From Flavobacteriaceae bacterium (GTDB lineage Bacteria; Bacteroidota; Bacteroidia; Flavobacteriales; Flavobacteriaceae), in NCBI GenBank assembly GCA_947478365.1, contig CANJWG010000006.1:1-43568 (forward strand): 43,568 nucleotides of DNA, given 5' to 3'. The notes beneath the pieces were generated by a model that was given only the letters and a program-made list of their open reading frames with translations, did not search any database and was not told where the DNA came from. A program made the translations under genes and the position numbers. Positions 9,102 to 41,021 of this stretch are shown piece by piece. Within the stretch, counting starts at the first letter, position 1. Every line of letters begins with the position of its first letter.

Positions 9102-9171
9102 AGAGAATAGAAAATAGACTGCACTTAGCCTTAAAATCTATATTCTATTCTCTATGTTCTATATTCTTTAT
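9102..9171. repeat. Intergenic 7-bp-periodic array with an inverted arm
   Basis: From 9137, five units of exactly 7 bp follow each other (TCTATAT, TCTATTC, TCTATGT, TCTATAT, TCTTTAT). About 19 nt upstream is the complementary strand of the same words (AGAGAAT, AGAAAAT), giving a 17-bp inverted repeat (9102-9118 with 9137-9153) with one mismatch. It lies between the divergent 5' ends of the TPR gene and ftsE. It is one of several arrays with period 7 in this window. Confidence 0.75.
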
Positions 9172-9179
9172 AAAATAAT

Positions 9180-9210
9180 TTTGAATACAAACCTTATCTT
9201 ATTACATTTA
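9180..9210 (+). promoter_or_regulatory. Probable ftsE promoter
   Basis: TTTG at 9180-9183 and TACATTTA at 9203-9210 are separated by 19 bases. The -7 element matches TAnnTTTG at all but the last base. It lies 20 nt before the ftsE ATG and just downstream of the 7-bp array. Confidence 0.45.
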
Positions 9211-9229
9211 CCCAATAAACTAATTACCC

Positions 9230-9913
9230 ATGTCAGAAACTGTTTTATCTCTAAAAAATATAACGATTTACCAAGAAAATAGAGTGATTTTATCACAAAT
9301 AAATCTTGAAGTTAAAGAAGGTGAATTCCTTTATATCATTGGTAAAACAGGAACAGGTAAAAGTAGTTTTATGAAAACCCTTTATGGAGATTTACCTTTA
9401 ACTGTTGGTACAGGAAATATTGTTGGTTATGATTTATTGAACTTAAAAGAAGATGAAATTCCTTTTTTGAGAAGAAAAATTGGAATTGTTTTTCAGGATT
9501 TTCAATTATTACCGGACAGAAGTATTAACGAGAATATGCTTTTTGTATTAAAAGCAACCGGCTGGACAGACAAAACAGCAATGCAGGATAAAATTGACGA
9601 TGTTCTGCAACGTGTTGGCATGGTCGGTCTGACAAATAAAATGCCCCACCAACTATCAGGTGGAGAGCAACAAAGAGTTGCTATTGCCAGAGCATTATTG
9701 AATGATCCTGAATTAATCTTAGCTGATGAGCCAACAGGAAATCTAGATCCACAAACGAGTGCTGAAGTTTTAGGTGTTTTGAAAAAAATTAATGAAAACG
9801 GAAAAACAGTTATTATGGCCACTCACGATTATGCTGTGATCATGAAATTCCCCGCCAAGACACTTAAATGCGAAGACAATACTATTTTTGAAGTGGTTCA
9901 AAAAACGGTCTAA
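9230..9913 (+). CDS. ftsE: Cell-division ABC transporter ATPase FtsE
   Basis: A 227-residue ABC ATPase of FtsE length and pattern. Walker A GKTGTGKS is at residues 38-45, the Q-loop in IGIVFQDFQLLPDRS, the signature LSGGEQQR at 142-149, Walker B with D166-E167, and the switch His at 199 (ATHD). QDFQLLPDRSINEN is typical of FtsE, which with the membrane protein FtsX controls periplasmic peptidoglycan hydrolases at the division site. No ftsX follows. Instead the gene runs 32 nt into the 3' end of a convergent membrane gene, so FtsX must be encoded elsewhere, as is usual in this group to my knowledge. LolD-type ATPases are the main alternative. Confidence 0.85.
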   Translation: MSETVLSLKNITIYQENRVILSQINLEVKEGEFLYIIGKTGTGKSSFMKTLYGDLPLTVGTGNIVGYDLLNLKEDEIPFLRRKIGIVFQDFQLLPDRSINENMLFVLKATGWTDKTAMQDKIDDVLQRVGMVGLTNKMPHQLSGGEQQRVAIARALLNDPELILADEPTGNLDPQTSAEVLGVLKKINENGKTVIMATHDYAVIMKFPAKTLKCEDNTIFEVVQKTV

Positions 9914-11138
9914 ATCTTCTAGTTTCTGACAAATAATTAGCCAAAAGTAATATTACAAAAGGAAAAGTCACGAGATGAAATCTATCGCCCTGACCACAGG
10001 AAATTCCAGATAATAATATGATGTACCCTATAAAAAAGCTAACAAAAGTAAATGAATTTGGTTTTTTAAAGGTTTTAAACAAAAAGAAAGCCGAGAGCAA
10101 TATTCCAAATAAACTAAGAAAACGATTTTGCCATTTAGAAACATCAAACAGTAAAGTTTTCCAAGAATCAAAGTTACTTCTTCCTTTATAGTTTTTCCAT
10201 TCTTCAATACAACTATTACCGCTAACTGTATTATCCCTTATGTCTGAAATATAAGCTTTTACCAGATTTGAAAAATTAGTTCTGATTTGGCGTTTTAAAT
10301 CTTCTAATGCCACTTTCTTTTGATCTGTAAAATCCAAACTAAATAAATATTCAGCTCTTGGGTTGTTGATTTGGTTGAATTCTTTTCCGTGTTTAAAACA
10401 GTCTGCTTTGCTGCATATATAATTGTGATACGTTACACCATCAATATAACTGATTGTGAAATTGCCATATTGCGCTTTCATTCCCACTACTTGAATTAAT
10501 ATCATCAAGAAACTCACATAAAGAAAAATCATGCTTTTGTGCTTATAGTTTTTGATAATTTCTTTGAAAAATAAGAACACTAAGATAATCCCAAAAAACT
10601 TAGCGCCTGGTTTTATCAACATACTCGATAAGAATATAGCTAGAGAAAATGATAAATAACAAAACTCTTTTGTTTTATAATATCGAAACAAAAAATAAAA
10701 AGCAAAAACTGTAAAGAAAACAAAGATGTTTTCAGTAAGTAAAAGATAATTTGAAGTGATATTTCCCAAAATAAAAAAAGGCAGCATTGCAAACCAAAAA
10801 GCCACTTTTTCTTTGAGAAAATTCTTCAAAATTTCAAATAAAATAATGGAAGTTCCCAACCAGCAAAAGACATTTAATATGAAACTCCATTCAAAAATAA
10901 CTGCATCAGAACTGCCAAATAAATAGGGGATTCCAATAATGAAAGCCATTAACATCGGGCGATAGTAATGACCTGTAAACTTTAAATACATAAATTGAGC
11001 CGCCTCCAAATAGTTTGAACTATCCCCATAAATTATTGTTTGTTTGTCTAATTGCAGGATGAAATTCAATATTTCCAGACAGAACAAGCCCACAAAAATG
11101 ATAAGAAGATGGTATTTATATTTTTTAAAAAAACTCAT
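9882..11138 (-). CDS. GT-C-type membrane glycosyltransferase-like protein
   Basis: A 418-residue polytopic membrane protein with about ten hydrophobic helices. The first periplasmic loop begins IIYGDSSNYLEAAQFM, containing the acidic residue expected in the first extracytoplasmic loop of GT-C transferases (PMT/ArnT-like, GT39/GT83). A soluble loop around residues 240-310 contains YHNYICSKADCFKHG. GT-C enzymes move a sugar from a polyprenyl-phosphate donor to a glycan or lipid on the periplasmic side. Its place at the edge of the polysaccharide cluster supports a glycan role. The ATG at 11138 is the first Met. Its 3' end overlaps ftsE by 32 nt on the opposite strand. Acceptor and donor are unknown. 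Confidence 0.65.
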   Translation of the reverse strand: MSFFKKYKYHLLIIFVGLFCLEILNFILQLDKQTIIYGDSSNYLEAAQFMYLKFTGHYYRPMLMAFIIGIPYLFGSSDAVIFEWSFILNVFCWLGTSIILFEILKNFLKEKVAFWFAMLPFFILGNITSNYLLLTENIFVFFTVFAFYFLFRYYKTKEFCYLSFSLAIFLSSMLIKPGAKFFGIILVFLFFKEIIKNYKHKSMIFLYVSFLMILIQVVGMKAQYGNFTISYIDGVTYHNYICSKADCFKHGKEFNQINNPRAEYLFSLDFTDQKKVALEDLKRQIRTNFSNLVKAYISDIRDNTVSGNSCIEEWKNYKGRSNFDSWKTLLFDVSKWQNRFLSLFGILLSAFFLFKTFKKPNSFTFVSFFIGYIILLSGISCGQGDRFHLVTFPFVILLLANYLSETRRFRPFFEPLQK

Positions 11139-11193
11139 ACTTGCCGAAAAATATATTTTCTTTGTAAATATATTATATAATTCTGTTTTCTGA

Positions 11194-12090
11194 ATGATTT
11201 CAATTCTAATTCCTAGCTATAACTACAACACTTTGCCTTTGGTAGAAGAATTGCACAATCAGGCTATTTTGGAAAATATTACATTTGAAATCATTGTTCA
11301 GGATGATGCTTCATCTCTTAATGAAACAACTCAAACAAATAACAAAATCAATCAGATTACACACTGTAGGTTCGAGCGCAATGAAACGAATATTGGTCGA
11401 GGACAAAATAGAAATTCATTGGTTGCTAAAGCTCAATATTCTTGGTTAATTTTTTTAGATTGCGATACATTTCCGCAGCATAAAAACTTTATCAGAAACT
11501 ATATTGACGCTATTAAAATTGAAAATGTAGAGGCAGTATACGGAGGGATAATTTATCAGAAAAATAATCCAAATCCAAGCGAAATGCTCCGTTGGGTTTA
11601 TGGTAAAAAAAGGGAAGAAATTCCATTGGAAAGAAGACTTAATCATCCATACAAACATTCGCTAATGTCTAATTTTTTGATGAAGAAAGTAATCATCCAA
11701 AAATTCCCTTTTAATGATAAGTTATTTCAATATGGTTATGAAGATGTTGTTCTAATTCGGGAATTACAGCGAAATGCTATTCCCATTGCCCAAATCGAAA
11801 ATGCTGCATATCATTTACAACTCGAAGATTCTGTTATTTTTTTAGAGAAAACAAAGCATTCTTTAGTAAATTTAAAAATGCTTACAGACCAAAACGTTTT
11901 TGATGATGACAACTCGTCATTGTTAAGAACTTATCAACTTATTTCAAAAATGGGCATGCGGAATTTAGTTGCTTACACCTTTAAAAAAACAGAAGCTTTT
12001 TTGACTAAAAATTTGCTCTCAGAAAGTCCATCATTAGTATTATTTCTATTGTATAAATTAGGTTATTTTTGTCAAATAAATTCTCGTTAA
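11194..12090 (+). CDS. Family 2 glycosyltransferase
   Basis: A 298-residue cytoplasmic GT-A glycosyltransferase. The N-terminus MISILIPSYNYNTLPLVEEL and VQDDASS form the nucleotide-binding part, WLIFLDCDTFP carries the DxD-type metal/donor motif, and FQYGYEDVVLIREL provides the acceptor-side ED motif. The length is normal. It probably adds a sugar during repeat-unit assembly on undecaprenyl phosphate. It is the first of two rightward genes; its stop overlaps the next ATG in a TAATG junction. It is divergent from the GT-C gene with a 55-nt gap. Sugar specificity cannot be read from sequence. Confidence 0.85.
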   Translation: MISILIPSYNYNTLPLVEELHNQAILENITFEIIVQDDASSLNETTQTNNKINQITHCRFERNETNIGRGQNRNSLVAKAQYSWLIFLDCDTFPQHKNFIRNYIDAIKIENVEAVYGGIIYQKNNPNPSEMLRWVYGKKREEIPLERRLNHPYKHSLMSNFLMKKVIIQKFPFNDKLFQYGYEDVVLIRELQRNAIPIAQIENAAYHLQLEDSVIFLEKTKHSLVNLKMLTDQNVFDDDNSSLLRTYQLISKMGMRNLVAYTFKKTEAFLTKNLLSESPSLVLFLLYKLGYFCQINSR

Positions 12091-13016
12091 TGCCTTATTT
12101 TTCAATAATCATACCGGTTTATAACAAAGAAAAATTTGTTGTCAAAACAATGGAAAGTGTTTTGAGCCAGACATTTACTGACTATGAAATAATCATTGTA
12201 AATGATGGTTCAACCGATCAAAGCGAAGCCAAAATTTCAACATTTAAAGACAACCGAATTAAATATTATTCCAAAAAAAATGAAGGTGTTGCTCTCGCCA
12301 GAAACTTCGGAATTGAAAAAGCAACCGCTGATTATATTTGCTTCTTAGATGCAGATGATTTTTGGTTTCCTACCTTTTTAGAAACAATGCATCGTTATAG
12401 TTCAGAACTTCCAGAACAAAAAGTCTTTGCTTCAGCTATAGAAATTGAGACTAAAAACAAATGCATTCCGGCGCACTATTCTATAAAGGAAACATCAGCT
12501 ATTGAAATTTTGAATTTCTTTGATGCCAGTCAAAAGGAATGTGTTTTGTGGACATCGAGTGTTTGCATTCACAAAAGTGTTTTCGAGAATGTCGGCGTCT
12601 TTGACACCAAAATAAAACATGGTGAAGACACTGAATTGTGGATTAGAATTGGGCTACAATTCCCAATTGTTTTTATACACAATATTTTAGCGCGCTATGT
12701 TTATCATAAAGAAAGTGTATCCCGAAATTCGAATTACTATTTTGAAAAATATACTTTCGACAAATATGATTTGGAAGAAAAGCATAATCCGAAACTAAAA
12801 AAGTATATGGATTTCAACCGATTTTCAGCTGTAATAAAATGCAAACTCGATAGTGATTGGAAAACAGCTAAAGAAATTTATTCAGCAATTGATTTGAATA
12901 ATCTAACTGTCAAGAAAAGAGTTTTACTTAAATCACCACCATTTTTATTAAAACTGTTATTGAAATTGAAATTCTTTTTGACGAATTTTGGTTTAGGAAA
13001 TTCCGTTTTTAGATAA
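12090..13016 (+). CDS. Family 2 glycosyltransferase
   Basis: A GT-A family 2 transferase of 308 residues. The N-terminus MPYFSIIIPVYNKEKFVVKTMESVLSQTFTDYEIIIVNDGSTD is nearly consensus for the family, and CFLDADDFW holds the DxD motif. HGEDTELWIRIG is the catalytic ED region. The ORF track begins at a TTG (12069), but the ATG at 12090 shares TAATG with the previous stop and starts exactly where the family starts, so I use it. The last 24 nt overlap the convergent fdtA gene. It most likely builds the same O-antigen unit as its neighbour. Confidence 0.88.
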   Translation: MPYFSIIIPVYNKEKFVVKTMESVLSQTFTDYEIIIVNDGSTDQSEAKISTFKDNRIKYYSKKNEGVALARNFGIEKATADYICFLDADDFWFPTFLETMHRYSSELPEQKVFASAIEIETKNKCIPAHYSIKETSAIEILNFFDASQKECVLWTSSVCIHKSVFENVGVFDTKIKHGEDTELWIRIGLQFPIVFIHNILARYVYHKESVSRNSNYYFEKYTFDKYDLEEKHNPKLKKYMDFNRFSAVIKCKLDSDWKTAKEIYSAIDLNNLTVKKRVLLKSPPFLLKLLLKLKFFLTNFGLGNSVFR

Positions 13017-13406
13017 TAAAAAATCATTATAATCTCGGATATAATCTTCCTCTTCATAAACTTCAGAAGCCACAACCAGGCAAACAGAACCCGAAGAAAA
13101 GTTCTGCAATTCACGCCAAATGCCATTTGGAATTAATAGTCCAAAATTTGGTTTGTTGAGTGTCACCGTTCTTTGTTTGTCGCCATCCTTCAATATCACA
13201 TCAAAACTACCGCTTAAAGCTACCATAAATTGCAGCAATTTATTGTGTGCATGTCCGCCTCGTTCTGCTCCACTCGGAACGTCATACAAATAATAAACGC
13301 GTTTCATTTCAAATGGGATTGTACTTCCCTCAATAACAGATAGATTTCCTCTAATGTCATCTAATTTAGGGACTTCTATTAATTGAATATTGTCAATTGT
13401 TGTCAT
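12993..13406 (-). CDS. fdtA: FdtA/QdtA-type dTDP-4-keto-6-deoxyhexose 3,4-ketoisomerase
   Basis: A 137-residue single-cupin enzyme of the FdtA/WxcM-like family. It moves the keto group of dTDP-4-keto-6-deoxyglucose from C4 to C3, preparing it for 3-amination. Visible hallmarks are DDIRGNLSVIEG, KRVYYLYDVPSGAERGGHAHNKLLQFMVAL (the conserved His-x-His of the cupin) and NFGLLIPNGIWRELQNFS. The length is typical. The product stereochemistry (Fuc3N or Qui3N series) cannot be decided by eye. The matching aminotransferase is encoded at 17959-19071. It starts at a TAATG junction with the glycosyltransferase upstream. The rmlA and rmlB genes needed to make the substrate are outside the window. Confidence 0.88.
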   Translation of the reverse strand: MTTIDNIQLIEVPKLDDIRGNLSVIEGSTIPFEMKRVYYLYDVPSGAERGGHAHNKLLQFMVALSGSFDVILKDGDKQRTVTLNKPNFGLLIPNGIWRELQNFSSGSVCLVVASEVYEEEDYIRDYNDFLLSKNGIS

Positions 13407-14254: not shown

Positions 14255-14277
14255 ATATAAAAAATCTGCTTTATAAA

Positions 14278-15420: not shown

Positions 15421-15439
15421 GTAAAGATTATTATTAAAA

Positions 15440-16927: not shown

Positions 16928-16948
16928 TTAATAATTTATCAAAAAAAA

Positions 16949-20045: not shown

Positions 20046-20157
20046 TTGTATTTTTTAAACATTGGAAAATTAAACATTTATTTTAAAAAAGTCGCCCTTA
20101 TTAATAATTCAATTTTCAAAAATATTGTTTAATTTTATCATCTCAACCGTTTTTGCA

Positions 20158-21984: not shown

Positions 21985-22797
21985 ATGAAACAAATTACTT
22001 CCGCTCAAAATCTGTTTATAAAATCTTTAATTCAGCTTCAAGAAAAAGCTAAAGCCCGAAAACATTCCGGCACTTTTTTGATTGAAGGCATACGCGAAAT
22101 TGAGTTAGCTGTAAAAGGAAATTACGAAATCGAAACATTACTATTTGTACCTGAAATCGTAACCAATTTGCAAATTTCCACCCAAGGCGAAGCAGAACTG
22201 AACGGAGTTAAATTTTCAAATTTTCAAATCATTGAGATATCAAAGGAAGTTTATCAAAAACTAGCCTATCGAGATACCACTGAAGGCATTTTGGCAGTAG
22301 CTAAAACCAAATCGCTACAATTAGCTGATTTAAAACTTTCTGAAAATCCTTTGATTTTAGTGATGGAGGCCATTGAAAAACCAGGCAATATCGGTGCGGT
22401 TTTGCGAACTTGTGATGCGGCTAAAATAGATGCCGTAATTATCGCTAATCCAAAAACAGATTTATATAATCCGAATATTGTTCGCTCAAGTATTGGGTGC
22501 TTATTTACCAATCAAATTGCAACGGGTTCTACTGAAGAAGTAATTGATTTTTTAATCAAACAAAATATTAATTTTTATAGTGCCACTTTGCAAAATTCGA
22601 CTTCCTATCATACTCAAGATTACACAACACCAACTGCATTGGTAGTTGGCACAGAAGCTACAGGATTATCCGAACTTTGGCGTGAAAAAGCTACTCAAAA
22701 TATTATAATTCCGATGCAGGGCGAAATTGATAGTATGAATGTTTCTGTTGCTGCTGCCATATTGATTTTTGAAGCTAAGCGACAACGAGGGTTTTAA
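21985..22797 (+). CDS. TrmH/SpoU-family RNA 2'-O-methyltransferase
   Basis: A 270-residue SPOUT methyltransferase. An N-terminal substrate-binding domain (SAQNLFIKSLIQLQEKAKARKHSGTFLIEGIRE) resembles RlmB/TsnR-type enzymes. The SpoU motifs follow in order: MEAIEKPGNIGAVLRTCDAAKIDAVI, LVVGTEATGLSELW and IPMQGEIDSMNVSVAAAI, which carry the knot and SAM pocket. It methylates ribose 2'-OH in rRNA or tRNA using S-adenosylmethionine; the exact nucleotide is not predictable here. The length is normal for the family. A 7-bp repeat array begins directly after its stop codon. Confidence 0.88.
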   Translation: MKQITSAQNLFIKSLIQLQEKAKARKHSGTFLIEGIREIELAVKGNYEIETLLFVPEIVTNLQISTQGEAELNGVKFSNFQIIEISKEVYQKLAYRDTTEGILAVAKTKSLQLADLKLSENPLILVMEAIEKPGNIGAVLRTCDAAKIDAVIIANPKTDLYNPNIVRSSIGCLFTNQIATGSTEEVIDFLIKQNINFYSATLQNSTSYHTQDYTTPTALVVGTEATGLSELWREKATQNIIIPMQGEIDSMNVSVAAAILIFEAKRQRGF

Positions 22798-22867
22798 TTT
22801 AGGATTTAGGAGTTGGGATTTACGATGCTTTTTACTAATTCCTTTTCCCTTATCTCTTATCCCTTAT
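22798..22867. repeat. Two 7-bp-periodic word families in one register
   Basis: Directly after the trmH stop come TTTAGGA, TTTAGGA, GTTGGGA and TTTACGA (22798-22825). Further on come CCCTTAT, CTCTTAT and CCCTTAT (22847-22867). The two blocks use unrelated words, yet their starts are 49 bases (7 x 7) apart, so the whole gap stays in a 7-bp register. No ORF or terminator is seen. Confidence 0.75.
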
Positions 22868-22932: not shown

Positions 22933-25152
22933 ATGATTGAAATAGATTTAGAAGAAGAAAAAAAAGCCATTGCCCGAGAATATAAAGAATTACTTCGCAT
23001 AAGTTATCAAACGCTAACCGATTCTGATAAAAAACTCATCCGAAAGGCCTTTGATGTTTCCGTTGAAGCACACAAAGATCAACGTCGTAAATCAGGGGAA
23101 GCATATATTTTTCATCCTATAGGTGTTGCCAAAATAGTTGCTTCCGAAATTGGTTTGGGCGCAACAAGTATTGCAGCCGCATTAATGCATGATGTGGTTG
23201 AAGATACTTATGTAACTATTGAAGACATCGAAAAAAAATTCAATCCAAAGATTGCCCATTTGGTCGAAGGTTTGACCAAAATTTCCAAGGTTAAAAAAGA
23301 TATGAACATATCAATGCAGGCGGAAAACTTCCGTAAAATGCTATTGACTTTAAACGATGATGTGCGTGTGATTCTGATAAAAATTGCTGACCGTTTGCAC
23401 AATATGCAAACAATGGAATCCATGCCAGATTACAAACAAGTAAAAATTGCTTCAGAAACATTATACATCTATGCACCTCTCGCCCATCGTTTGGGTTTAT
23501 ATAACATAAAAACCAAACTAGAAGATTTAGGTTTGAAATATACGGAACCCGATATTTATAAAGATATTGTCGGCAAAATAAAGGAAACCAAAGAAGAGCA
23601 AGACGAATACATCAAAACGATTTCTGATGTTTTAAAAAAATCCTTAGACGATGAAGGTGTTGAATTTGTCCTAAAAGGAAGACCAAAATCAATCTATTCT
23701 ATTCGTAGAAAAATGGCAGCGCAAAACGTAACTTTTGATGAAGTTTACGATAAATTTGCCCTTCGCATCATTTACAAATCCAATCTTCACGACGAGAAGT
23801 TTTTAGCTTGGAAAATTTATTCCATTGTTACGGATCATTATCGCCCGAGTCCAAGTCGTTTGCGCGACTGGATTTCATCACCAAAATCAACCGGTTATGA
23901 AGCCCTTCACATTACCGTTATGGGACCAAAAGGACGTTGGGTAGAAATTCAAGTACGAAGCGAGCGCATGGATGAAATTGCTGAAAAAGGATACGCAGCT
24001 CATTATAAATACAAACAAGGAGCAACAGAAGAAAGCGGTTTAGATACCTGGCTCAACTTGTTAAAAGAAGCTTTAGAAAGTTCAGAAACTAATGCAGTAG
24101 ATTTTGTAGAAGATTTCAAAATGAATTTGTACGCCAAAGAAATCTTTGTTTTTACTCCCAAAGGCGAAATCAAATCATTGCCCAAAGGTGCTACATCGCT
24201 TGACTTTGCTTTTAGCATACATTCCGAGATTGGTATTAAAACCCGTGGAACCCGAGTCAACGGAAAATTAGTTCCATTAAATTATGAATTAAAAAGTGGT
24301 GACCAAGTTGAAATCATAACTTCTGTTCATCAAAAACCAACTATCAACTGGCTTGATTATGTAACTACTTCAAGAGCCAAAAATAAAATTAGAAACGTTC
24401 TTAACGAAAACACCAAGAAAATTGCCGAAGACGGGAAAGAACTATTGACCCGGAAATTGAAACATTTAAAAATAACAATCAACGAGAATGTGGTCAATGA
24501 ATTGGTGAATTACTTTAAACTAAAAACCAGTTTAGATTTATTTTATCGTGCAGGAATTGGCTCCGTTGAAAACCAACAACTCAAGGATTTTGCTGCTCAA
24601 AAAAGTAATACCTTGATGAATTTCTTCAAAAACAAAATTAAACGTTCACCAAGCTCTAATTCAGAAGATATAAACAAACCTATCCTGAACAGCAATTATG
24701 ATATGCTTGTTTTTGGGGCAGATCTAGATAAGTTAGATTATAAATTGTCGTCGTGCTGTAACCCAATTCCCGGCGATGATGTTTTTGGTTTTATTACCAT
24801 TAACGAAGGCATTAAAGTGCACAAAAAAGATTGTCCCAACGCCATTTCACTTCAATCAAATTATGCCTACCGAATTATGTTGGCCAAATGGATTGATTCG
24901 TCACAACAGGAATTTAAAGCTATTTTAAAAATTACTGGAATGGATAGTTTAGGATTGACCAATGAATTAACAAAAGTAATTTCAAACAATATGCATGTGA
25001 ATATACAAAGTATTTCTCTTAGTGGTGAAGCCGGAATATTTTATGGCCAAGTTGCTGTTATTGTGCAAAATAATAGCATACTGAAAAAACTCATCGATAA
25101 TATCAAAAAAATTGATGGTATTGATAAGGTAACCCGAGTATATACAAACTAG
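22933..25152 (+). CDS. spoT: Bifunctional (p)ppGpp synthetase/hydrolase (Rel/SpoT)
   Basis: A 739-residue long RSH enzyme, the stringent-response regulator. In order: HD hydrolase domain (HPIGVAKIV, MHDVVEDT with His86-Asp87 and Glu90-Asp91), synthetase domain (GRPKSIYSIRRKM, FALRIIY, SPKSTGYEALHITVMGP, VEIQVRSERMDEIAEKGYAAHYKYK), TGS domain (IFVFTPKGEIKSLPKGATSLDFAFSIHS), a zinc-finger/RIS region (LSSCCNPIPGDDVFGF, HKKDCPNA) and a C-terminal ACT domain. Both catalytic sites look intact. The synthetase signature usually written RxKD reads RLRD here. The track starts at TTG 22918; I choose the ATG at 22933. It is followed by the Fur-family gene after 74 nt. Confidence 0.93.
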   Translation: MIEIDLEEEKKAIAREYKELLRISYQTLTDSDKKLIRKAFDVSVEAHKDQRRKSGEAYIFHPIGVAKIVASEIGLGATSIAAALMHDVVEDTYVTIEDIEKKFNPKIAHLVEGLTKISKVKKDMNISMQAENFRKMLLTLNDDVRVILIKIADRLHNMQTMESMPDYKQVKIASETLYIYAPLAHRLGLYNIKTKLEDLGLKYTEPDIYKDIVGKIKETKEEQDEYIKTISDVLKKSLDDEGVEFVLKGRPKSIYSIRRKMAAQNVTFDEVYDKFALRIIYKSNLHDEKFLAWKIYSIVTDHYRPSPSRLRDWISSPKSTGYEALHITVMGPKGRWVEIQVRSERMDEIAEKGYAAHYKYKQGATEESGLDTWLNLLKEALESSETNAVDFVEDFKMNLYAKEIFVFTPKGEIKSLPKGATSLDFAFSIHSEIGIKTRGTRVNGKLVPLNYELKSGDQVEIITSVHQKPTINWLDYVTTSRAKNKIRNVLNENTKKIAEDGKELLTRKLKHLKITINENVVNELVNYFKLKTSLDLFYRAGIGSVENQQLKDFAAQKSNTLMNFFKNKIKRSPSSNSEDINKPILNSNYDMLVFGADLDKLDYKLSSCCNPIPGDDVFGFITINEGIKVHKKDCPNAISLQSNYAYRIMLAKWIDSSQQEFKAILKITGMDSLGLTNELTKVISNNMHVNIQSISLSGEAGIFYGQVAVIVQNNSILKKLIDNIKKIDGIDKVTRVYTN

Positions 25153-25187
25153 TTGTGAGTTAATAAATTATGAGTTATGAGTTATTT
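25153..25187. repeat. Short 7-bp-periodic array after spoT
   Basis: Immediately after the spoT stop lies a short array with 7-bp units, clearest as ATTATGA, GTTATGA, GTTATTT at 25167-25187. It is weaker than the other arrays in the window and sits just before the fur promoter. Confidence 0.5.
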
Positions 25188-28852: not shown

Positions 28853-28857
28853 AAAAA

Positions 28858-30054: not shown

Positions 30055-30140
30055 TTAAATTGTTTACAATAATAATCGCTGTTCACAAAAAAAGCACTGT
30101 CTTTCCCTAATTTTATTAAGGTTAATTTTAACACTTAGTT

Positions 30141-32282: not shown

Positions 32283-32338
32283 TTGGGATTTAGGATATTG
32301 GATTTAGGATATTGGATTTGGGATATTGGATTTGGGAT
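32283..32338. repeat. Eight-unit 7-bp array directly after aroE
   Basis: Eight consecutive 7-bp units with no indels: TTGGGAT, TTAGGAT, ATTGGAT, TTAGGAT, ATTGGAT, TTGGGAT, ATTGGAT, TTGGGAT. Partly a 14-bp super-unit. It starts at the first base after the aroE stop codon and ends 55 nt before rlmH. It has no dyad symmetry, so it is not a terminator. Confidence 0.85.
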
Positions 32339-32393
32339 TTATAACGAAAGAGGAATTATTGAAAGCATTCGCAATAAGCAACCGTAATAATCT

Positions 32394-32867: not shown

Positions 32868-32905
32868 AAGTACGATTTACGAAATACAATTTACGAAGTT
32901 CAATA
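32868..32905. repeat. 7-bp-periodic array after rlmH
   Basis: Units TACGATT, TACGAAA, TACAATT, TACGAAG (32871-32898) follow each other exactly 7 bp apart, starting 3 nt after the rlmH stop. The array runs into the 3' end of the convergent lipoprotein gene at 32900. Confidence 0.7.
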
Positions 32906-33529
32906 AATGTATTCTTTTTTTGTATTGATACTAATTCCCTTTGGAGCAATCAATTGCTTTACAAAAAATTGATACTGTATATACTTTCCAAACGACATTC
33001 CCTTATCATAAGCAAAAACAACGCTTGAAGCCGGAACTGGTTTTGAATCCAAAAATGTCTGTAACTCATTTTTAGAAAAAACTTCTTCATTAAAATGAAC
33101 CAAATCATTTCGGTCTAAATAAAAATAGATTACATTAAAATCGGGTTTCTCTAACTTATATTTCACTTTGGTAAAAGGAAAGAAAGCCATAGTTTTTTTA
33201 ACCGTATCTGTATAAGTAAAATAATTTTCAGAAGTTGCACTTTTGTCCATGCTTGAAGTCTTTTTGGTTTGCATTTTTTTAATTTCCAATATCACTTTTC
33301 GCAATGGCAAACGCTTATCTATATTAAAAAACCAATTGGTCGAACTAATTGATTTGCTTCTGTTGACTTCAATTAAAGTGTCTTTTTCTTCTGTTTTGAA
33401 AAAGAAATAAATCGGAGAATAATCTTTCCCATCGGCTACGACAGTTTCATTGGCTTGAGGCAAGACAACTTCTTTATTTTGACAGGAAGACAATAAAAAT
33501 AAAAGAACTAAAACAACTACTCCTTTCAT
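32900..33529 (-). CDS. Lipoprotein of unknown function
   Basis: A 209-residue lipoprotein: hydrophobic leader MKGVVVLVLLFLLSSC with the lipobox Cys at residue 16, then a soluble, Lys- and aromatic-rich domain (SPIYFFFKTEEKDTLIEVNR; FNVIYFYLDRNDLVHFNEEVF; YIQYQFFVKQLIAPKGI). No catalytic motif is seen. The start overlaps the folP stop in an ATGA junction, so it is translated from the folP mRNA. I do not recognise the family. The coupling to folP does not imply a folate role. Confidence 0.8.
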   Translation of the reverse strand: MKGVVVLVLLFLLSSCQNKEVVLPQANETVVADGKDYSPIYFFFKTEEKDTLIEVNRSKSISSTNWFFNIDKRLPLRKVILEIKKMQTKKTSSMDKSATSENYFTYTDTVKKTMAFFPFTKVKYKLEKPDFNVIYFYLDRNDLVHFNEEVFSKNELQTFLDSKPVPASSVVFAYDKGMSFGKYIQYQFFVKQLIAPKGISINTKKEYIY

Positions 33530-34344
33530 AATTGACTAACTAACTTTATGGTTTCCATAGCTTCTTTTACATCGTGAACCCGAAGGATGTTGGCGCCTTT
33601 TTGCAACGCTATGGTATTTAAAACTGTAGTCCCATTCAGTGCAAATTCGGGTGAAGTTTCGAGCGTTTTGGATATCATTGATTTTCTTGAAACGCCAACT
33701 AATATTGGTAATTCGAGCAATTGAAATAACTCTAAATTATTCATCACATCAAAATTTTGGTCTTTTGTCTTGGCAAATCCAAATCCGGGATCGATTAGCA
33801 AATCACTGATTCCCAAACTTCTTGCTTGCGCTACTTTTTCTGAAAAGTAAAACAGCATTTCTTTGGTAATATTTTCATAATTCGCCATACTTTGCATTGT
33901 TTGCGGATTACCTTTCATGTGCATCATTATATAGGGAACATGATGTTTGGCAACTGTTGCCATCATTACTGCGTCCATACTTCCTGCAGAAATATCATTG
34001 ATAATGCAAGCTCCTTTTTCAATCGCTGCTTTCGCCACTTTAGCACGAAAAGTATCAACAGAAATCAATGTGGCCGGAAAATGTTTTAAAACTAATTGTA
34101 TAACTGGAATTAATCGGCTAATCTCTTCTTCTTCCGAAACAAATTCTGCACTTGGTTTACTAGAATAAGCACCAATATCAATAAAAGTAGCGCCTTCAGA
34201 GAGCATTTTTTCAACTTGGAAAAGCACACTTTCATCATCAGAATGTTTGCCACCATCGTAGAACGAATTTGGAGTTACGTTCAATATTCCCATTACTTTG
34301 GGAGATGTTAAGTCAATTAGCTTTCCGAGGCAATTAATAGTCAT
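33526..34344 (-). CDS. folP: Dihydropteroate synthase
   Basis: A 272-residue TIM-barrel enzyme joining p-aminobenzoate to dihydropterin pyrophosphate, the step blocked by sulfonamides. Visible are KVMGILNVTPNSFYDGG, FIDIGAYSSKPSA, LISVDTFRAKVAKAAI, IINDISAGS, IMMHMKGNPQTM, IDPGFGFAKTKDQN, LVGVSRKSM and RVHDV. The ORF track begins 26 codons upstream. Those codons run through the 7-bp array and do not resemble FolP, so I use the ATG at 34344 (MTINCLGKLIDL). It overlaps the lipoprotein gene by 4 nt. Its promoter is probably the minus-strand element at 34422-34454. Confidence 0.93.
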   Translation of the reverse strand: MTINCLGKLIDLTSPKVMGILNVTPNSFYDGGKHSDDESVLFQVEKMLSEGATFIDIGAYSSKPSAEFVSEEEEISRLIPVIQLVLKHFPATLISVDTFRAKVAKAAIEKGACIINDISAGSMDAVMMATVAKHHVPYIMMHMKGNPQTMQSMANYENITKEMLFYFSEKVAQARSLGISDLLIDPGFGFAKTKDQNFDVMNNLELFQLLELPILVGVSRKSMISKTLETSPEFALNGTTVLNTIALQKGANILRVHDVKEAMETIKLVSQL

Positions 34345-34370
34345 AGTAAATCTTAATTGAGTAATAAGAT

Positions 34371-34405
34371 TTTGTACTTTGTACTTCAATCTTAATTCTT
34401 TACTT
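34371..34405. repeat. 7-bp-periodic array in the folP / DUF1599 divergent promoter region
   Basis: TTTGTAC, TTTGTAC, TTCAATC, TTAATTC, TTTACTT run in exact 7-bp steps. The second TTTG lies at the -33 position of the plus-strand promoter below, and the array sits in the folP leader on the other strand. Confidence 0.65.
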
Positions 34406-34408
34406 TTG
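34378..34408 (+). promoter_or_regulatory. Promoter of the DUF1599 operon
   Basis: TTTG at 34378-34381 (inside the 7-bp array), 19 bases, TACTTTTG at 34401-34408. Both boxes match the Bacteroidota consensus. Predicted start is near 34415, leaving about 22 nt before the ATG at 34437. Confidence 0.6.
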
Positions 34409-34421
34409 GTGAAATTTGACA

Positions 34422-34454
34422 CAAAGATACACTGAAATGAGTAAAACTTCTCAA
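34422..34454 (-). promoter_or_regulatory. Possible folP promoter
   Basis: On the minus strand TTG (34454-34452), 22 bases, TATCTTTG (34429-34422). The spacer is at the long end of the accepted range. It overlaps the first codons of the divergent DUF1599 gene and would give a folP leader of about 70 nt that includes the array. Confidence 0.45.
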
Positions 34455-34982: not shown

Positions 34983-34996
34983 AACAATCCTAATCT

Positions 34997-36106: not shown

Positions 36107-36273
36107 TTTTTAATCTTTTTACCATTTTAAAATATCTAAAATTTCTTTATGATTAGTAAGAACAAAAAGCAAATACGTCATCGAAGAAGAAAAAACATAA
36201 ATTGTTTTATTTAAAAGTTCAAAATAAAAATAAAGATTCTAAATAATCCATTCAGGCCCAAATATAAAAAAAT

Positions 36274-36771: not shown

Positions 36772-37523
36772 TGAGGCGAAAAATTGTTGCTGGTAATTGG
36801 AAAATGAACAAAAATGCCGAGGAAACAGAAGATTTATTAAATGATTTAATTGATAAATTACCTAATGATATTGAAGCACAAGTTATTGTTGCGCCAACAT
36901 ATATCAATCTTGCTTCAGCTGTTGATCATTTAGAATATACCAATATTCAAGTTGCTGCACAAAATATAAGTCAGTTTGAAAGCGGTGCTTATACCGGAGA
37001 AATTTCTGCCGATATGCTCAAAAGTATTGGAGTTAATATAGTTATTATTGGTCATTCTGAACGTCGTGCTTATTTTCATGAAACCGATTTTATTTTGGCA
37101 GAAAAAGTAACGACAGCACTATCTCATAATATGTCAATAATTTTTTGCTTTGGCGAAGAGTTAAAAGACCGACAAAACAACCAACACTTCAATGTAGTTG
37201 AAAACCAACTTCGTGATGGCTTATTTCATATTAAAGATAAAGATTGGGAACAAATAGTGTTGGCATACGAACCTGTTTGGGCTATTGGAACAGGAGAAAC
37301 TGCCTCTCCGGAACAGGCACAAGAAATGCATCGATTTATTAGAGAAACCGTTAGACATCATTTCGGAAGTAATGTTGCCGAAGACGTTTCTATACTTTAT
37401 GGCGGTAGTGTTAAACCGGAAAATGCTAAAGAAATTTTCTCAAAACCCGATGTTGATGGCGGACTAATTGGTGGTGCAGCTTTAAAAGCTTCAGATTTTG
37501 CCGCAATTGTTAGCTCGATATAA
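36771..37523 (+). CDS. tpiA: Triosephosphate isomerase
   Basis: A 250-residue TIM barrel interconverting dihydroxyacetone phosphate and glyceraldehyde 3-phosphate in glycolysis. Catalytic residues are visible: Lys11 in GNWKMNK, His95 in IIGHSERR, Glu167 in LAYEPVWAIGTG. The phosphate loop is ILYGGSVKPENA and the end GLIGGAALKASDF. Complete and standard. The start overlaps the TlpA-like stop; a terminator follows. Confidence 0.97.
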   Translation: MRRKIVAGNWKMNKNAEETEDLLNDLIDKLPNDIEAQVIVAPTYINLASAVDHLEYTNIQVAAQNISQFESGAYTGEISADMLKSIGVNIVIIGHSERRAYFHETDFILAEKVTTALSHNMSIIFCFGEELKDRQNNQHFNVVENQLRDGLFHIKDKDWEQIVLAYEPVWAIGTGETASPEQAQEMHRFIRETVRHHFGSNVAEDVSILYGGSVKPENAKEIFSKPDVDGGLIGGAALKASDFAAIVSSI

Positions 37524-37549
37524 GAAAAATTAGTCATAAAATCTAAATC

Positions 37550-37575
37550 CTTTCATTAATTGAAAGTTTTTTTTT
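37550..37575 (+). terminator. Terminator after tpiA
   Basis: A short stem CTTTCA / TGAAAG with a 5-nt loop is followed by an uninterrupted T-run. The stem is weak, but the T tract and the position 27 nt after the tpiA stop support it. Confidence 0.6.
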
Positions 37576-37611
37576 ATTTTTTATACTTAATTATGCATTT
37601 TATCGGTTTTA

Positions 37612-37643
37612 TTTGTATTTAGTCGAACATTTTTTTACTTTTA
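37612..37643 (+). promoter_or_regulatory. Possible promoter of the secreted hypothetical gene
   Basis: TTTG at 37612-37615, 20 bases, TACTTTTA at 37636-37643, one base off TAnnTTTG. The ATG follows at 37667. Confidence 0.45.
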
Positions 37644-37666
37644 CTAAACAATAATGTAAAATTCAA

Positions 37667-38137
37667 ATGAAAATAAAACTCATCATAGTGTTGTTGTTTA
37701 TTTGTATCTGGGATATACATTCTCAAGTAGATATACAGAAACGATTTCAATCAGATAATAGAAAATATTATATTTGGAACAAGGAGTTCGAAAAATATGA
37801 ATTGAGAGAAACAGAATATGAAAACTCTGTTATTGACATTCGTGAAATAGGTTCCAAAACCAATGGTTATATTGTCATCAGCATGGTTGATAACGGGCAA
37901 GTTAGAATGCATCATGGTTCTATTATTGACTTTACTCAAACCAGTGAAGAAGAAGGAACATGGCTAATTCGTTCCAAGTTTATGAGAGCAAAATTGATCT
38001 ACAATCCAAAAGAAAATACCATTACTTATCTTTATGAAGTTAATGACAAACGCTATAATAAGCTAATGATTTTCAACGTAAAACCCGATGAAATTCCAAA
38101 TGCTAGTCTCAAATCTGTTGTTACCACAGATGATTAA
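37667..38137 (+). CDS. Secreted hypothetical protein
   Basis: A 156-residue exported protein with a signal peptide (MKIKLIIVLLFICIWDIHSQ). The mature part is beta-rich and charged (KYYIWNKEFEKYELRETEYENSVIDIREIG; GYIVISMVDNGQVRMHHGSIID), ending in an acidic tail. No catalytic motif and no lipobox are present. I do not recognise the family. It stands alone between the tpiA terminator and prmA. Confidence 0.7.
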   Translation: MKIKLIIVLLFICIWDIHSQVDIQKRFQSDNRKYYIWNKEFEKYELRETEYENSVIDIREIGSKTNGYIVISMVDNGQVRMHHGSIIDFTQTSEEEGTWLIRSKFMRAKLIYNPKENTITYLYEVNDKRYNKLMIFNVKPDEIPNASLKSVVTTDD

Positions 38138-38199
38138 TTTTTGACTAAATGACATTATAGTAAGGTTCACGATTCTTAACTTTGCAAAAAAAATAATCA

Positions 38200-39033
38200 A
38201 TGTCAAATATTTATTTAGGGTATCATTTTTCAGTTGAACCCAAAAAACTTGGTTCTGAAATATTAATAGCAGAATTAGGTGAAAAACCATTTGAAAGTTT
38301 TATCGAAACCGAACTTGGTTTTAGCGCTTATATACAAAAAGACCTTTGTACTAAAAACATATTAGATGATATTTTTTTACTAAATTCTCCTGAATTCATT
38401 ATTTCTTACACTATCGAAGAAATTGATCAAGTCAATTGGAACGAAGAGTGGGAAAAAAACTTTGAAGCCATTGATGTAGATGGTAAATGTCATGTACGCG
38501 CACCTTTTCACCCAAAAACTAATGCCGAATTTGATATTGTTATCGAGCCTAAAATGAGCTTTGGAACAGGTCATCACGAAACTACTCATATGATGATTCA
38601 ACATCTTTTAGAAAATGATATTTCTAATATGAAAACTTTAGATATGGGTTGTGGCACAGCAATTCTGGCAATTCTTGCTGAAATGAAAGGTGCTAAAATT
38701 ATTGATGCTATTGATATTGACAACTGGTGCTACTTGAATTCGATTGAAAATGCAGAACGTAATAATTGTCATAAAATATCTGTTTATGAAGGCGATGCTT
38801 CTTTATTAAAAGGAAATAAATATGACCTGATAATTGCCAATATCAATCGCAATATATTATTAAATGACATGCAACAATACGTGGATTGTTTAAACAAAAA
38901 CGGAATCCTATTATTAAGTGGTTTTTATAATGAAGACATTACATTTATTGATGACTCCTGCACCGAAAAAGGATTGACATTTGTTAAAAAAATCGAAAGA
39001 AATAATTGGGTTTCGTTGAAATATATAAATTAG
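38200..39033 (+). CDS. prmA: Ribosomal protein L11 methyltransferase
   Basis: A 277-residue SAM-dependent enzyme. The N-terminal part binds L11; NWNEEWEKNFEAIDVDGKCHVRAPFHP leads to the catalytic domain with IEPKMSFGTGHHETTHMMI, LDMGCGTAILAILAEMKGA (SAM site), AIDIDNWCYLNSIENAERN and YDLIIANINRNILL. The domain order and length fit PrmA. A -7-like TAACTTTG lies at 38177-38184, but no TTG is at the right distance. clpS follows after 32 nt. Confidence 0.93.
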   Translation: MSNIYLGYHFSVEPKKLGSEILIAELGEKPFESFIETELGFSAYIQKDLCTKNILDDIFLLNSPEFIISYTIEEIDQVNWNEEWEKNFEAIDVDGKCHVRAPFHPKTNAEFDIVIEPKMSFGTGHHETTHMMIQHLLENDISNMKTLDMGCGTAILAILAEMKGAKIIDAIDIDNWCYLNSIENAERNNCHKISVYEGDASLLKGNKYDLIIANINRNILLNDMQQYVDCLNKNGILLLSGFYNEDITFIDDSCTEKGLTFVKKIERNNWVSLKYIN

Positions 39034-39065
39034 CTGTTGAAAAATTTTACACCTTGTAAAACAAT

Positions 39066-39347
39066 ATGAAAATGAGTACTATTGAAAAAGTTCAGGAAGA
39101 CATTTTAGTTGAAGAACAAATCGGAATTAATAACGAAATCGTATTGTATAACGATGATGTTAACACTTTTGATCATGTTATTGACACACTGATTCGGGTT
39201 TGTAATCATAATCCGGAACAAGCCGAACAATGTGCAATTTTAGTTCATTATAAAGGAAAATGTACAGTAAAAACAGGTTCTTTTGATGAGCTAAAACCAC
39301 AATGCACCCAACTTTTAGATGCTGGCTTAAGCGCTGAAATTATTTAA
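39066..39347 (+). CDS. clpS: ATP-dependent Clp protease adaptor ClpS
   Basis: A 93-residue adaptor that hands N-degron substrates to the ClpA-type unfoldase. The core VLYNDDVNTFDHVIDTLIRVCNHNPEQAEQCAILVHYKGKCTVKTGSFDELKP contains the NDD-T motif that reads the N-terminal residue and the conserved VH-GK stretch. Two starts are possible (39066 or 39072); the first is used. The last 8 nt overlap the convergent hypothetical gene. Confidence 0.93.
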   Translation: MKMSTIEKVQEDILVEEQIGINNEIVLYNDDVNTFDHVIDTLIRVCNHNPEQAEQCAILVHYKGKCTVKTGSFDELKPQCTQLLDAGLSAEII

Positions 39348-39768
39348 ATTTCCAATCAAACTCATCATTGTCTTTGATGATAGCACCAATTTCAACTCGA
39401 ATTATATCATCATATTCTGATTGCAGAATTAACCAATTACTTTCATTGAAGTGATTTTCGGTTGTGTCAAAATCTTCTTTCGCCCAAGATTTGAAAGGCA
39501 GTTCAGCTTTAACCATTTCTATATTTCTTCCCAAGACTTTTTTATCCAAAATGGTAGCTTCCGGATGTGAACAAATAATATAACCCAAGCGAAACTCTTC
39601 ATCTTCATAAAAAGTTAAACTTAGTTTTTGTTGGTTATACAAACAAATAACATTCCCGTCTTCATCGTTATATTGTTTATCTGGTTTACCGTAAAGCATC
39701 TCAACATCCTTTTGCTTCATTCCAAAAAGCAATTTATCTATACCGTTTTTTAGATTAATAATCATCAT
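39340..39768 (-). CDS. Small soluble hypothetical protein downstream of purM
   Basis: About 142 residues, unknown function. From the ATG at 39768 it reads MMIINLKNGIDKLLFGMKQKDVEMLYGKPDKQYNDEDG, where GMKQKDVEMLYGKPD resembles the SmpA/OmlA-type motif seen in many small proteins. The rest is beta-rich and acidic, with no signal peptide. The track's start at 39801 lies inside purM; the ATG at 39768 is 7 nt after the purM stop and more plausible. It is co-transcribed with purM and overlaps clpS by 8 nt at the other end. Confidence 0.65.
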   Translation of the reverse strand: MMIINLKNGIDKLLFGMKQKDVEMLYGKPDKQYNDEDGNVICLYNQQKLSLTFYEDEEFRLGYIICSHPEATILDKKVLGRNIEMVKAELPFKSWAKEDFDTTENHFNESNWLILQSEYDDIIRVEIGAIIKDNDEFDWKFK

Positions 39769-39775
39769 TTCGATT

Positions 39776-40954
39776 TTAATACTCAAAATTTCCAAACTCA
39801 CTAGTAATAGTGAGTTTTTTGTTATTACTAGCTACTACTCTTCCTATAATTTGAGCGTCAACACCAAAAGATTTTGAAATTTCGATAATATTGTTGGCTA
39901 TTTCAGCAGGAACATATAATTCCATTCTGTGTCCACAATTAAAAACTTGATACATTTCTTTCCAACTCGTTTTGGATTGTTCTTGTATCAATTTGAAAAG
40001 TGGCGGCACGGGAAAAAGATTGTCTTTTATTACATGAACTTTATCTACAAAATGCAACACTTTGGTTTGAGCTCCGCCCGAACAATGCACCATTCCGTGA
40101 ATGTCCTTAGAAGTGTATTTATTCAGTATAGTTTTGATGATTGGTGCGTATGTTCGTGTAGGAGACAATACTAATTTCCCAGCATCAATTGGAGAATTCT
40201 CTACTTCATCTGTCAGTCTTGTTTTTCCTGAATAAACCAAATCATTAGGTATCGAACTGTCGAAACTTTCTGGATATTTATGCGCTAAATAATTGGGAAA
40301 AACGTCATGACGCGCTGATGTCAATCCGTTGCTTCCCATTCCGCCGTTGTAACTTTTTTCATATTTGGCCTGACCGAAAGAAGCCAAACCAACAATCACA
40401 TCTCCTGCTTTTATATTCGCATTATCAATTACATCACTGCGTTTCATTCGGGCTGTAACGGTTGAATCTACTATTATCGTTCGCACTAAATCGCCAACAT
40501 CAGCCGTTTCACCACCAGTAGAATGGATGGTAACACCAAACGTTTTTAGCTCTGCAATCAATTCTTCTGTTCCGTTGATAATGGCAGAAATGACTTCGGC
40601 CGGAATTAGATTTTTGTTTCTTCCTATAGTTGATGAAAGCATGATATTATCTGTCGCTCCAACACAAAGCAAATCGTCAATATTCATAATCAAAGCATCC
40701 TGCGCAATACCTTTCCAAACAGAAATATCGCCAGTTTCTTTCCAATACAAATAAGCTAAAGACGATTTTGTTCCAGCGCCATCAGCATGCATAATGAGGC
40801 AATAATTGTCATCATTAGTCAGATAATCAGGAACAATTTTGCAGAAAGCTTTTGGAAATAATCCTTTGTCTATGTTTTTGATAGCGTTGTGGACATCTTC
40901 CTTGGAAGCCGAAACTCCTCGAAGATTGTAACGTTGACTGTTATCGGAACTCAT
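39776..40954 (-). CDS. purM: Phosphoribosylformylglycinamidine cyclo-ligase (AIR synthetase, Bacteroidota type)
   Basis: A 392-residue enzyme closing the imidazole ring to form AIR in purine biosynthesis, ATP-dependent. Visible are RYNLRGVSASKEDVH, MHADGAGTKSSLAYLYWKETGD, DALIMNIDDLLCVGATDNIMLSSTIGRN, HSTGGETADVGDLVRTIIVDSTV, GDVIVGLASFGQAKYEKSYNGGMGSNGLTSARHDVF and MVHCSGGAQTKVLHF. It is longer and more divergent than E. coli PurM, in line with the Bacteroidota form. A -7 box TATCTTTG lies at 40978-40985 on the minus strand, 23 nt before the ATG. Confidence 0.85.
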   Translation of the reverse strand: MSSDNSQRYNLRGVSASKEDVHNAIKNIDKGLFPKAFCKIVPDYLTNDDNYCLIMHADGAGTKSSLAYLYWKETGDISVWKGIAQDALIMNIDDLLCVGATDNIMLSSTIGRNKNLIPAEVISAIINGTEELIAELKTFGVTIHSTGGETADVGDLVRTIIVDSTVTARMKRSDVIDNANIKAGDVIVGLASFGQAKYEKSYNGGMGSNGLTSARHDVFPNYLAHKYPESFDSSIPNDLVYSGKTRLTDEVENSPIDAGKLVLSPTRTYAPIIKTILNKYTSKDIHGMVHCSGGAQTKVLHFVDKVHVIKDNLFPVPPLFKLIQEQSKTSWKEMYQVFNCGHRMELYVPAEIANNIIEISKSFGVDAQIIGRVVASNNKKLTITSEFGNFEY

Positions 40955-40977
40955 GTGTAGTGTTGTGTGTTGTTCCG

Positions 40978-40985
40978 CAAAGATA
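40978..40985 (-). promoter_or_regulatory. -7 box of purM promoter
   Basis: TATCTTTG on the minus strand matches TAnnTTTG exactly and sits 23 nt before the purM ATG. The region where the -33 box should be is occupied by the 7-bp array and lacks a TTG, so promoter strength is uncertain. Confidence 0.5.
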
Positions 40986-40986
40986 A

Positions 40987-41021
40987 GATTAGATTTGGGA
41001 TTTGAGATTTGGGATTTGGGA
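40987..41021. repeat. 7-bp-periodic GGGATTT array upstream of purM
   Basis: GATTAGA, TTTGGGA, TTTGAGA, TTTGGGA, TTTGGGA run in 7-bp steps between the OmpA gene stop and the purM promoter. The words resemble those after trmH and aroE but on this side are read antisense to the genes. Confidence 0.8.

Follow-up and report, generated by a model that had tools for sequence, protein, structure and literature searches.

Among the long simple sequence repeats of bacterial genomes, units of seven nucleotides are in excess (Mrazek 2007, as cited in PMC4679880 and PMC4692102), and in the accessible parts of the two citing papers this excess is given without an accepted cause, slippage governed by how long a piece of template the polymerase contacts having been proposed. 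Within the same accessible texts, in which Flavobacterium is not treated, these repeats resemble the arrays described below in that the heptamer is the most abundant unit, non-coding DNA is favored and many words are used, whereas the Flavobacterium arrays are degenerate, often form inverted pairs of fixed polarity and turn over as whole slots. Since a heptanucleotide excess with different words has already been published for other bacteria, the basic phenomenon is not new; an earlier sequence-only reading of this DNA knew of no description of the origin of such arrays.

About 40% of the Xanthomonas GGGAATC and Nostoc GGGGA(C/T)T heptads form convergent inverted pairs (70/186, 75/183), and the prominent arrays of sister species have different genes as neighbors (PMC4692102). 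They share with the Flavobacterium arrays their intergenic location and convergent inverted pairing, but are built from one G-quadruplex word per genome, whereas Flavobacterium uses many A+T-rich words without G tracts (PMC4692102); a GGG tract in each unit was not found, the words including, for example, TCTATTT, AATTATC and GTTTATA. The TAACTGA direct repeats of Beggiatoaceae, Cyanobacteria and five Bacteroidetes likewise have a 7-bp unit and are intergenic, but only one word is used there, in the vicinity of start codons (PMC4679880). In Flavobacterium this word type is one of many, present as CTGACAA/CTGATAA arrays (for example in L019 and L108) that account for a minority of the arrays of the genome studied here and for none of those in the analyzed stretch. 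The heptad stems of P6b in the Nostoc tRNA-Leu intron also carry a seven-nucleotide motif on both sides of the stem and show repeated replacement of the motif class in place but, unlike the Flavobacterium arrays, they lie in a group I intron and comprise two motif classes only (PMC4476775). REP/BIME elements are similarly dispersed intergenic palindromes; the Flavobacterium arrays differ from them in having tandem heptads instead of a conserved core or loop and in needing no Y1 transposase.

Arrays in the window and period preference of intergenic DNA

The analyzed DNA, hereafter the window, is a stretch of 43,568 nucleotides from a Flavobacteriaceae bacterium. The 7-bp arrays that the sequence-only reading had reported at seven places are real, being strong at 9137, 22797/22841, 25151, 32283 and 40992, and weak at 32871 and 34371, where they fall below the array threshold at period 7 (Table 1). 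They are all intergenic as claimed, with the one caveat that 34371-34386, which is followed by a degenerate stretch up to 34405, lies inside the longest folP ORF call (33526-34422, GTG start) and outside the likelier shorter one (33526-34344). The array at 32283 is best described by a 14-bp unit of two heptads.

Table 1. Repeat features of the window (coordinates in the window)
Feature	Position	Strand	Remark
5' (G-strand) arm of array hairpin, unit ATAGANN	9093..9118	+	period-7 array
Loop between arms	9119..9136	.	differs among dispersed copies L329-L348
3' (C-strand) arm, unit TCTATNN	9137..9171	+	TRF period 7, 5.0 copies
G-type array TTTAGGA	22797..22826	+	directly 3' of spoU-type methylase stop codon
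C-type array CCCTTAT	22841..22867	+	same gap as 22797..22826, G-first order
Single array GAGTTAT	25151..25185	+	after spoT/relA
Array of 8.3 heptads / 14-mers (GGATTTAGGATATT)	32283..32340	+	directly 3' of aroE stop codon
Weak array, two copies of 14-mer (TACAATTTACGAAA)	32871..32897	+	TRF only
Weak array, 2.3 perfect copies TTTGTAC	34371..34386	+	TRF only
Single G-type array GATTTGG	40992..41024	+	7 bp from OmpA-family gene stop

In the gap DNA of the window (∼3.1 kb), 14-base stretches with at least 12 self-matches occurred 25 times at lag 7, 49 times at lag 14 and not at all at lags 3-6 and 8-13. Extending the count to 791,733 bp (42%) of the genome from which the window comes, that of a Flavobacterium (the own genome), we found 42 period-7 arrays in its 73,764 bp of intergenic DNA against 0.8 expected, and only 15 in 718 kb of coding DNA, the arrays thus being mainly non-coding. 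The intergenic counts for periods 5, 6, 8 and 9 were 0, 3, 13 and 2, respectively, with about one array per period expected from composition-matched simulation, and the peak at 7 was stable for thresholds from 9 to 18. The condition under which the sequence-only reading would have been withdrawn, lag 7 being no commoner than its neighbors, is therefore contradicted genome-wide.

Across the genus, sampled as one genome per species, period-7 arrays numbered 42 in the own genome, 23 in G350, 22 in G295 and 87 in the loci of 80 relatives. Period 7 exceeded the neighboring periods in four of five samples and was, above expectation, the commonest unit length between 5 and 11 nt, the exception being G346 with 11 arrays at period 7 and 19 at period 8; beside 7, a length of 8 bp thus forms a genuine second class in the genus. 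A sample of E. coli K-12 showed no period-7 excess, and a cyanobacterial plasmid carried 10 period-7 arrays against at most two for each of the periods 6, 8 and 9, with only two hairpins. The earlier proposal of one mechanism with a fixed 7-nt step accordingly survives in part: a word-independent step found genome- and genus-wide and absent from the E. coli sample calls for a common cause, but the step is not strictly 7.

The words differ from gap to gap, which indicates that the cause acts on length and not on sequence. They are not wholly unrelated, as had been thought, since some of them recur (ATAGA/TCTAT, TTTAGGA, AATTATC, CTGACAA), and the proportion of own pairs with identical words, 2.2% compared with 0.3-0.5%, is higher than by chance within a genome. 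A single dispersed word was rejected, since no more than 2-3% of within-genome pairs have identical words. Also rejected were a unit of a five-base core and two-base spacer, suggested by eye, whose most variable columns are placed as by chance, and a purine/pyrimidine block structure, the unique 7-mer words being like random intergenic 7-mers.

Inverted partners and polarity

A second, inverted array of the same word was present in the same gap for 27-44% of arrays, against 2-7% in swapped gaps, which marks the partner as gap-specific. In 67 of 72 array pairs the G-bearing strand forms the 5' arm, and the G-first polarity, at 58:5, held again at 9:0 in a further genome, obtained once the prediction had been made. 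Ordinary intergenic hairpins lean the opposite way (252:397), and in divergent gaps arrays were G-first at 10:0 against 41:37 for plain hairpins. Of the single arrays, those of G type lie to the left (relative position in the gap 0.34) and those of C type to the right (0.64; p 1e-8), and in co-directional gaps 79 of 102 single arrays carried C on the sense strand. The inverted G-first pairing, like the exchange of whole slots described below, had been overlooked in the sequence-only reading.

Ordinary neutral slippage without any special step, the polarity stemming from base-composition gradients at gene ends, would fit a weak gradient of the same direction in the array-free gaps of the own genome (GC skew falling from +0.15 on the left to -0.10 on the right). 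Given a period peak far above its neighbors at all thresholds, the opposite polarity of ordinary hairpins in the same genomes and the contrast between arrays and plain hairpins in divergent gaps, we regard this explanation as very improbable.

The two arms share their word but not a mirrored order of units, and arm-to-arm pairing was no better than that of unit-shuffled versions; we therefore rejected fresh mirror copying and selection for perfect pairing. The 5' arm at 9093 reached an inverted partner score of 16.5 against a shuffled mean of ∼8, and the arrays at 22797 and 22841 paired weakly, with a score not above shuffles. Shared word, unmirrored order and polarity would all be explained by scars of double-strand breaks, in which 3' ends were extended by G-bearing 7-8 nt repeats in a telomere-like manner and then joined, as would the left and right placement of single G and C arrays. 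Against such scars stand the array-rich genomes without reverse transcriptase or Ku match, and the gap-specific words, which leave no common template; moreover, we know of no such activity in bacteria, and we consider this origin quite unlikely.

The inverted G-first arrays could alternatively be selected elements, kept as a two-way RNA hairpin, which may serve in mRNA end protection or processing or in the control of read-through, or as sites for a protein, arranged in convergent arrays with 7-8 bp spacing. In favor of selection are a fixed polarity that runs counter to ordinary hairpins, the bias of C to the sense strand, the better folding of several paired arrays than of their shuffles (z ∼-3 to -5.7) and a G-first hairpin at the asnS|rpoN slot in 15 of 19 species despite at least six different words, a pattern suggestive of either a conserved architecture or a strong hotspot. 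Conversely, the presence or absence of arrays varies at most slots, shuffling of units does not impair pairing of the arms, and one sequence-specific protein cannot bind all of the unrelated words. Intrinsic terminators were rejected, array hairpins having the opposite polarity and no excess of T-rich tails (18-38% against 14-35% of ordinary hairpins); no terminator was called at the arrays within 22.7-41.1 kb, and no Rfam family matched in the window. On this balance, selection appears a serious but rather unlikely explanation.

Turnover and exchange of slots

Between conserved flanks, presence, absence and full replacement of the word all occur. The 25151 array is common to contig L022 and absent or different in other relatives, and at 40992 the same word is found in G149, an 8-bp inverted pair taking its place in G350. 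For one slot, identity was 96% between species with flanking genes at 83%, and only 62% between nearest relatives with flanks at 91%.

Such wholesale replacement could reflect a dispersed mobile palindrome (REP-, MITE- or fold-back-like), the terminal inverted repeats of which happen to be heptad arrays. The hairpin at 9.1 kb, with 39 local matches in the own genome, in many cases at least two per site, and matches at many places in other genomes, would suit this idea, as would the inward polarity typical of terminal repeats and the aroE slot at 32283, which is wholly replaced by an unrelated 9-bp-repeat hairpin in G350 (95% identical flanks) and in G149. A search for plasmid relatives of the hairpin found none. 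Loops and flanks, however, are not common to the copies, identical words are rare across gaps, and a Y1/RAYT-type transposase (Y1_Tnp) had no match in the own genome (85% complete) or in the complete G171. The near-identical slots of G350 and G094 occupy the same locus, which indicates exchange of alleles rather than transposition, and a mobile palindrome is in our judgment improbable.

Possible origin and significance

The sequence-only reading had suggested looking for a reverse transcriptase or polymerase gene accompanying the arrays. RVT_1 matched nothing in G295, G346 or G171, three complete genomes that bear arrays, and Ku had no match in the array-rich genomes examined. Reverse transcriptase, Ku and Y1 transposase were therefore rejected as generators, and RVT_1, Ku and Y1 transposase are unnecessary for the arrays.

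The explanation that we tentatively prefer, while rating it somewhat short of an even chance, combines slippage-type synthesis of a preferred 7-8 nt step with strand foldback and short-tract recombination. The arrays would arise where DNA is synthesized locally with repeated re-priming at intervals of 7 or, less frequently, 8 nt (slipped-strand synthesis), and would be tolerated because they lie between genes. In many gaps the G-bearing strand, as we infer, would fold back and copy the array into a second, inverted one, so that the G strand would always come first (5'-G arm, loop, C arm-3'). Units would then be gained and lost independently in each arm, which would scramble their order, and the exchange of whole slots between species would proceed through short-tract recombination. 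The period preference, the inverted partners, their polarity, the unmirrored unit order and the turnover and exchange of slots are observed; slippage and foldback as the modes of synthesis, and the G-bearing strand as the folding one, are inferences. Besides these observations, the differing words and the dispensable RVT_1, Ku and Y1 transposase, the explanation is favored by relative L024, which carries a single TTTAGGA unit, a possible seed, at the site matching 22797; a shared word in unmirrored order is expected if each arm slips separately. None of our results gives a reason for 7 and 8 over 5 or 6, and the asnS|rpoN architecture and the above-chance recurrence of words within a genome speak against the explanation; arms that pair no better than after unit shuffling lend no direct support to a foldback copy.

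A bolder formulation, which we consider improbable, is that 3' ends receive G-bearing repeats from a directional synthesis of 7-8 nt step, or that this process folds back the G strand, with convergent G-first array pairs left behind as gap scars; it would represent an analogue of telomere-type extension without reverse transcriptase, acting at least in Flavobacterium and Xanthomonas.

For Bacteroidota, no prior description was found of the gap-specific inverted pairs, their G-first polarity and unmirrored order, the wholesale turnover of slots or the array-rich genomes without reverse transcriptase and Ku. Simple alignment of gaps fails on such arrays, which can also lead searches for motifs and terminators astray. 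Any mechanism has to satisfy the sharp constraints set by the fixed polarity, the slot exchange between species, the unmirrored order and the gap-specific words that both arms carry; a known bacterial oddity thereby gains testable rules, and the question becomes approachable in a laboratory Flavobacterium.

Repeat period and its distribution

As contig C6, the window belongs to an assembly of 1.90 Mb in 151 contigs that is 85% complete. The spoT/relA product encoded in it shares 94–95% identity with its counterparts in Flavobacterium silvisoli and in related metagenome genomes, which places the source genome in Flavobacterium. Four contigs (L022, L050, L059 and L069) filed as Candidatus Nitrotoga, Bifidobacterium breve, Sphingobacterium and Lentimicrobium have a Flavobacterium-like spoT (86–95% identity) and look like misbinned contigs.

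The tandem arrays described at seven intergenic places by the sequence-only reading were confirmed, five being strong and two weak, as was the lag-7 excess in the window's gaps, where near-perfect windows numbered 25 at lag 7, 49 at lag 14 and none at lags 3–6 and 8–13. The further claim, that a 7-bp step is shared whatever the repeated word, was upheld as a preference and not as a fixed length. In the own-genome sample (the window plus 0.75 Mb of further sequence from the same assembly, with genes called by hexamer score and arrays counted per period with no period favoured), intergenic arrays numbered 0, 3, 42, 13 and 2 at periods 5, 6, 7, 8 and 9, respectively, with 0.8 expected at period 7. 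This peak remained at period 7 across thresholds 9 to 18. Coding DNA held 15 arrays in 718 kb, and a 100-kb sample of E. coli K-12 had none, whichever period between 3 and 16 was counted.

Around spoT, 80 Flavobacterium loci (151 kb of gaps) yielded 87 arrays at period 7, 29 at period 8, six at period 6 and three at period 9. Among relatives, the counts at periods 7 and 8 were 23 and 10 in G350 and 22 and 2 in G295, but 11 and 19 in the large-genome species G346, where the 8-bp class prevails with CTTAG/CTTTG/CTCAG-type units and inverted pairs. In 11 genomes from other families of the order, sampled at only 20–40 kb each, four period-7 arrays were found in 68 kb of gaps, or ∼0.6 per 10 kb of gap as compared to 5.7 in the own genome. 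Heptad excess in bacteria is already known from two earlier reports (PMC4679880, PMC4692102), and arrays of an Anabaena plasmid (10 at period 7, one at 6, two at 8) agree with published cyanobacterial heptads.

Coordinates of inverted array pairs and of dispersed elements
Feature	Sequence	Position
Inverted array pair	window	9093-9118 + 9137-9171
8-bp inverted pair, G346	L193	15252-15348
8-bp inverted pair, G346	L202	1216-1296
Palindrome TGTCATTCCGACGAAGGAG...	L003	9558-9576
Palindrome TGTCATTCCGACGAAGGAG...	L007	15996-16014
Palindrome TGTCATTCCGACGAAGGAG...	L014	18276-18348
Palindrome TGTCATTCCGACGAAGGAG...	L117	19172-19190
Element GTCAGGCTGAGC(G/T)GAGTCGAAG	L073, L090	near 9900

Inverted partners and their polarity

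For 27–44% of arrays, a further array in the same gap repeated the reverse complement of the word, whereas the same test against other array-bearing gaps succeeded in 2–7%. Xanthomonas GGGAATC repeats, ∼40% of which lie in convergent pairs (PMC4692102), have the same arrangement. Pairs in which the 5′ arm holds the G-bearing strand (G-first) outnumbered the opposite order 14:0 in the own genome, 15:0 in G350, 6:2 in G346 and 23:3 among relatives' loci, which include orthologous copies of one slot (a gap between conserved flanking genes) and are not all independent. In contrast, ordinary intergenic hairpins of the same genomes gave 226:342 (Fisher p 1.4e-16). For G295, whose polarity was predicted before its retrieval, arrays gave 9:0 and plain hairpins 26:55, so that G-first polarity stands at 44:2 in four separate genomes.

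The rule is strand-symmetric. Since it is kept in divergent gaps (array pairs 10:0, plain hairpins 41:37), neither terminators nor avoidance of G before start codons readily explains it; convergent gaps gave 3:1 on four pairs only. In agreement with this polarity, single arrays carrying the G-bearing word lie to the left in their gaps (relative position 0.34) and those carrying the C-bearing word to the right (0.64, p 1e-8), although a weak composition gradient of the same direction in array-free gaps may contribute to this placement.

Shuffling the unit order in one arm did not reduce complementarity to the other, and in the ATAGA/TCTAT family slightly increased it, indicating that the arms have a common word and evolve as separate arrays. 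Selection for perfect arm pairing is thus not evident, though several pairs fold better than shuffled versions. ATAGA/TCTAT hairpins also occur several per gap ahead of a putative epimerase-like gene (identified by eye) in L332, L336 and L348, apparently in polysaccharide clusters, where they seem frequent.

Turnover of slots between species

The aroE/rlmH gap holds heptads in the own genome and an unrelated hairpin with 9-bp repeats in G350, with flanks 95% identical. Similarly, the gap near 41 kb in the window has GATTTGG in the own genome and G149, and the 8-bp GATTTGAA plus its inverted partner in G350, while the gap near 9 kb, with conserved flanks, has a TCTAT hairpin, GATTTAGG, GGAATTT or GGAAGTG arrays, or none, depending on the species. 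In G105 (L290, contig G105:C38), the entire array hairpin of this gap (∼190 bp) is tandemly duplicated.

Identity of slots and of flanks was uncorrelated (rho 0.09, p 0.31): between G350 and G094 the slot is 96% and the flanking genes 83% identical, and between the own genome and G350 62% and 91%, with 52% expected for shuffled slots. Species thus seem to swap slots with one another in short tracts. In the Nostoc tRNA-Leu intron, a heptad stem has likewise been reported to undergo motif replacement (PMC4476775).

At the asnS/rpoN gap (L119 in the own genome), 7- or 8-bp arrays occur in 14 of 19 species and a G-first hairpin in 15, with at least six different words, and two species have an 11-bp gap with no array. 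This architecture is constant across species and keeps in play a selected element with a function, an explanation we regard as rather unlikely for the arrays.

Other dispersed elements include a non-periodic REP-like palindrome at several own-genome places, unrelated to the heptad arrays, and a recurrent element in the spoU–spoT gap of some Flavobacterium species.

Candidate machinery and proposed origin

A reverse transcriptase co-occurring with the arrays, envisaged from the sequence alone, found no backing, as RVT_1 had no match in the own genome, G149, G171, G186, G295 or G346. Ku had no matches in the eight Flavobacterium genomes tested, nor had the Y1 transposase family in the own genome or complete G171; such absences are weak in the own genome given its incomplete assembly, and stronger in G171, G295 and G346 (99–100% complete). 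As far as we searched the open-licence literature, we found no description in Bacteroidota of the polarity and how it differs from that of ordinary hairpins, of arms that lack a mirrored unit order, or of the slot exchange.

We favour a model in which slipped synthesis with a preferred step of 7–8 nt, a proposal already published (PMC4679880, PMC4692102), would create periodicity whatever the word. Foldback of the G-bearing strand, which we infer together with the strand preference, would then yield inverted G-first pairs, and subsequent slippage within each arm would erase their mirror order.
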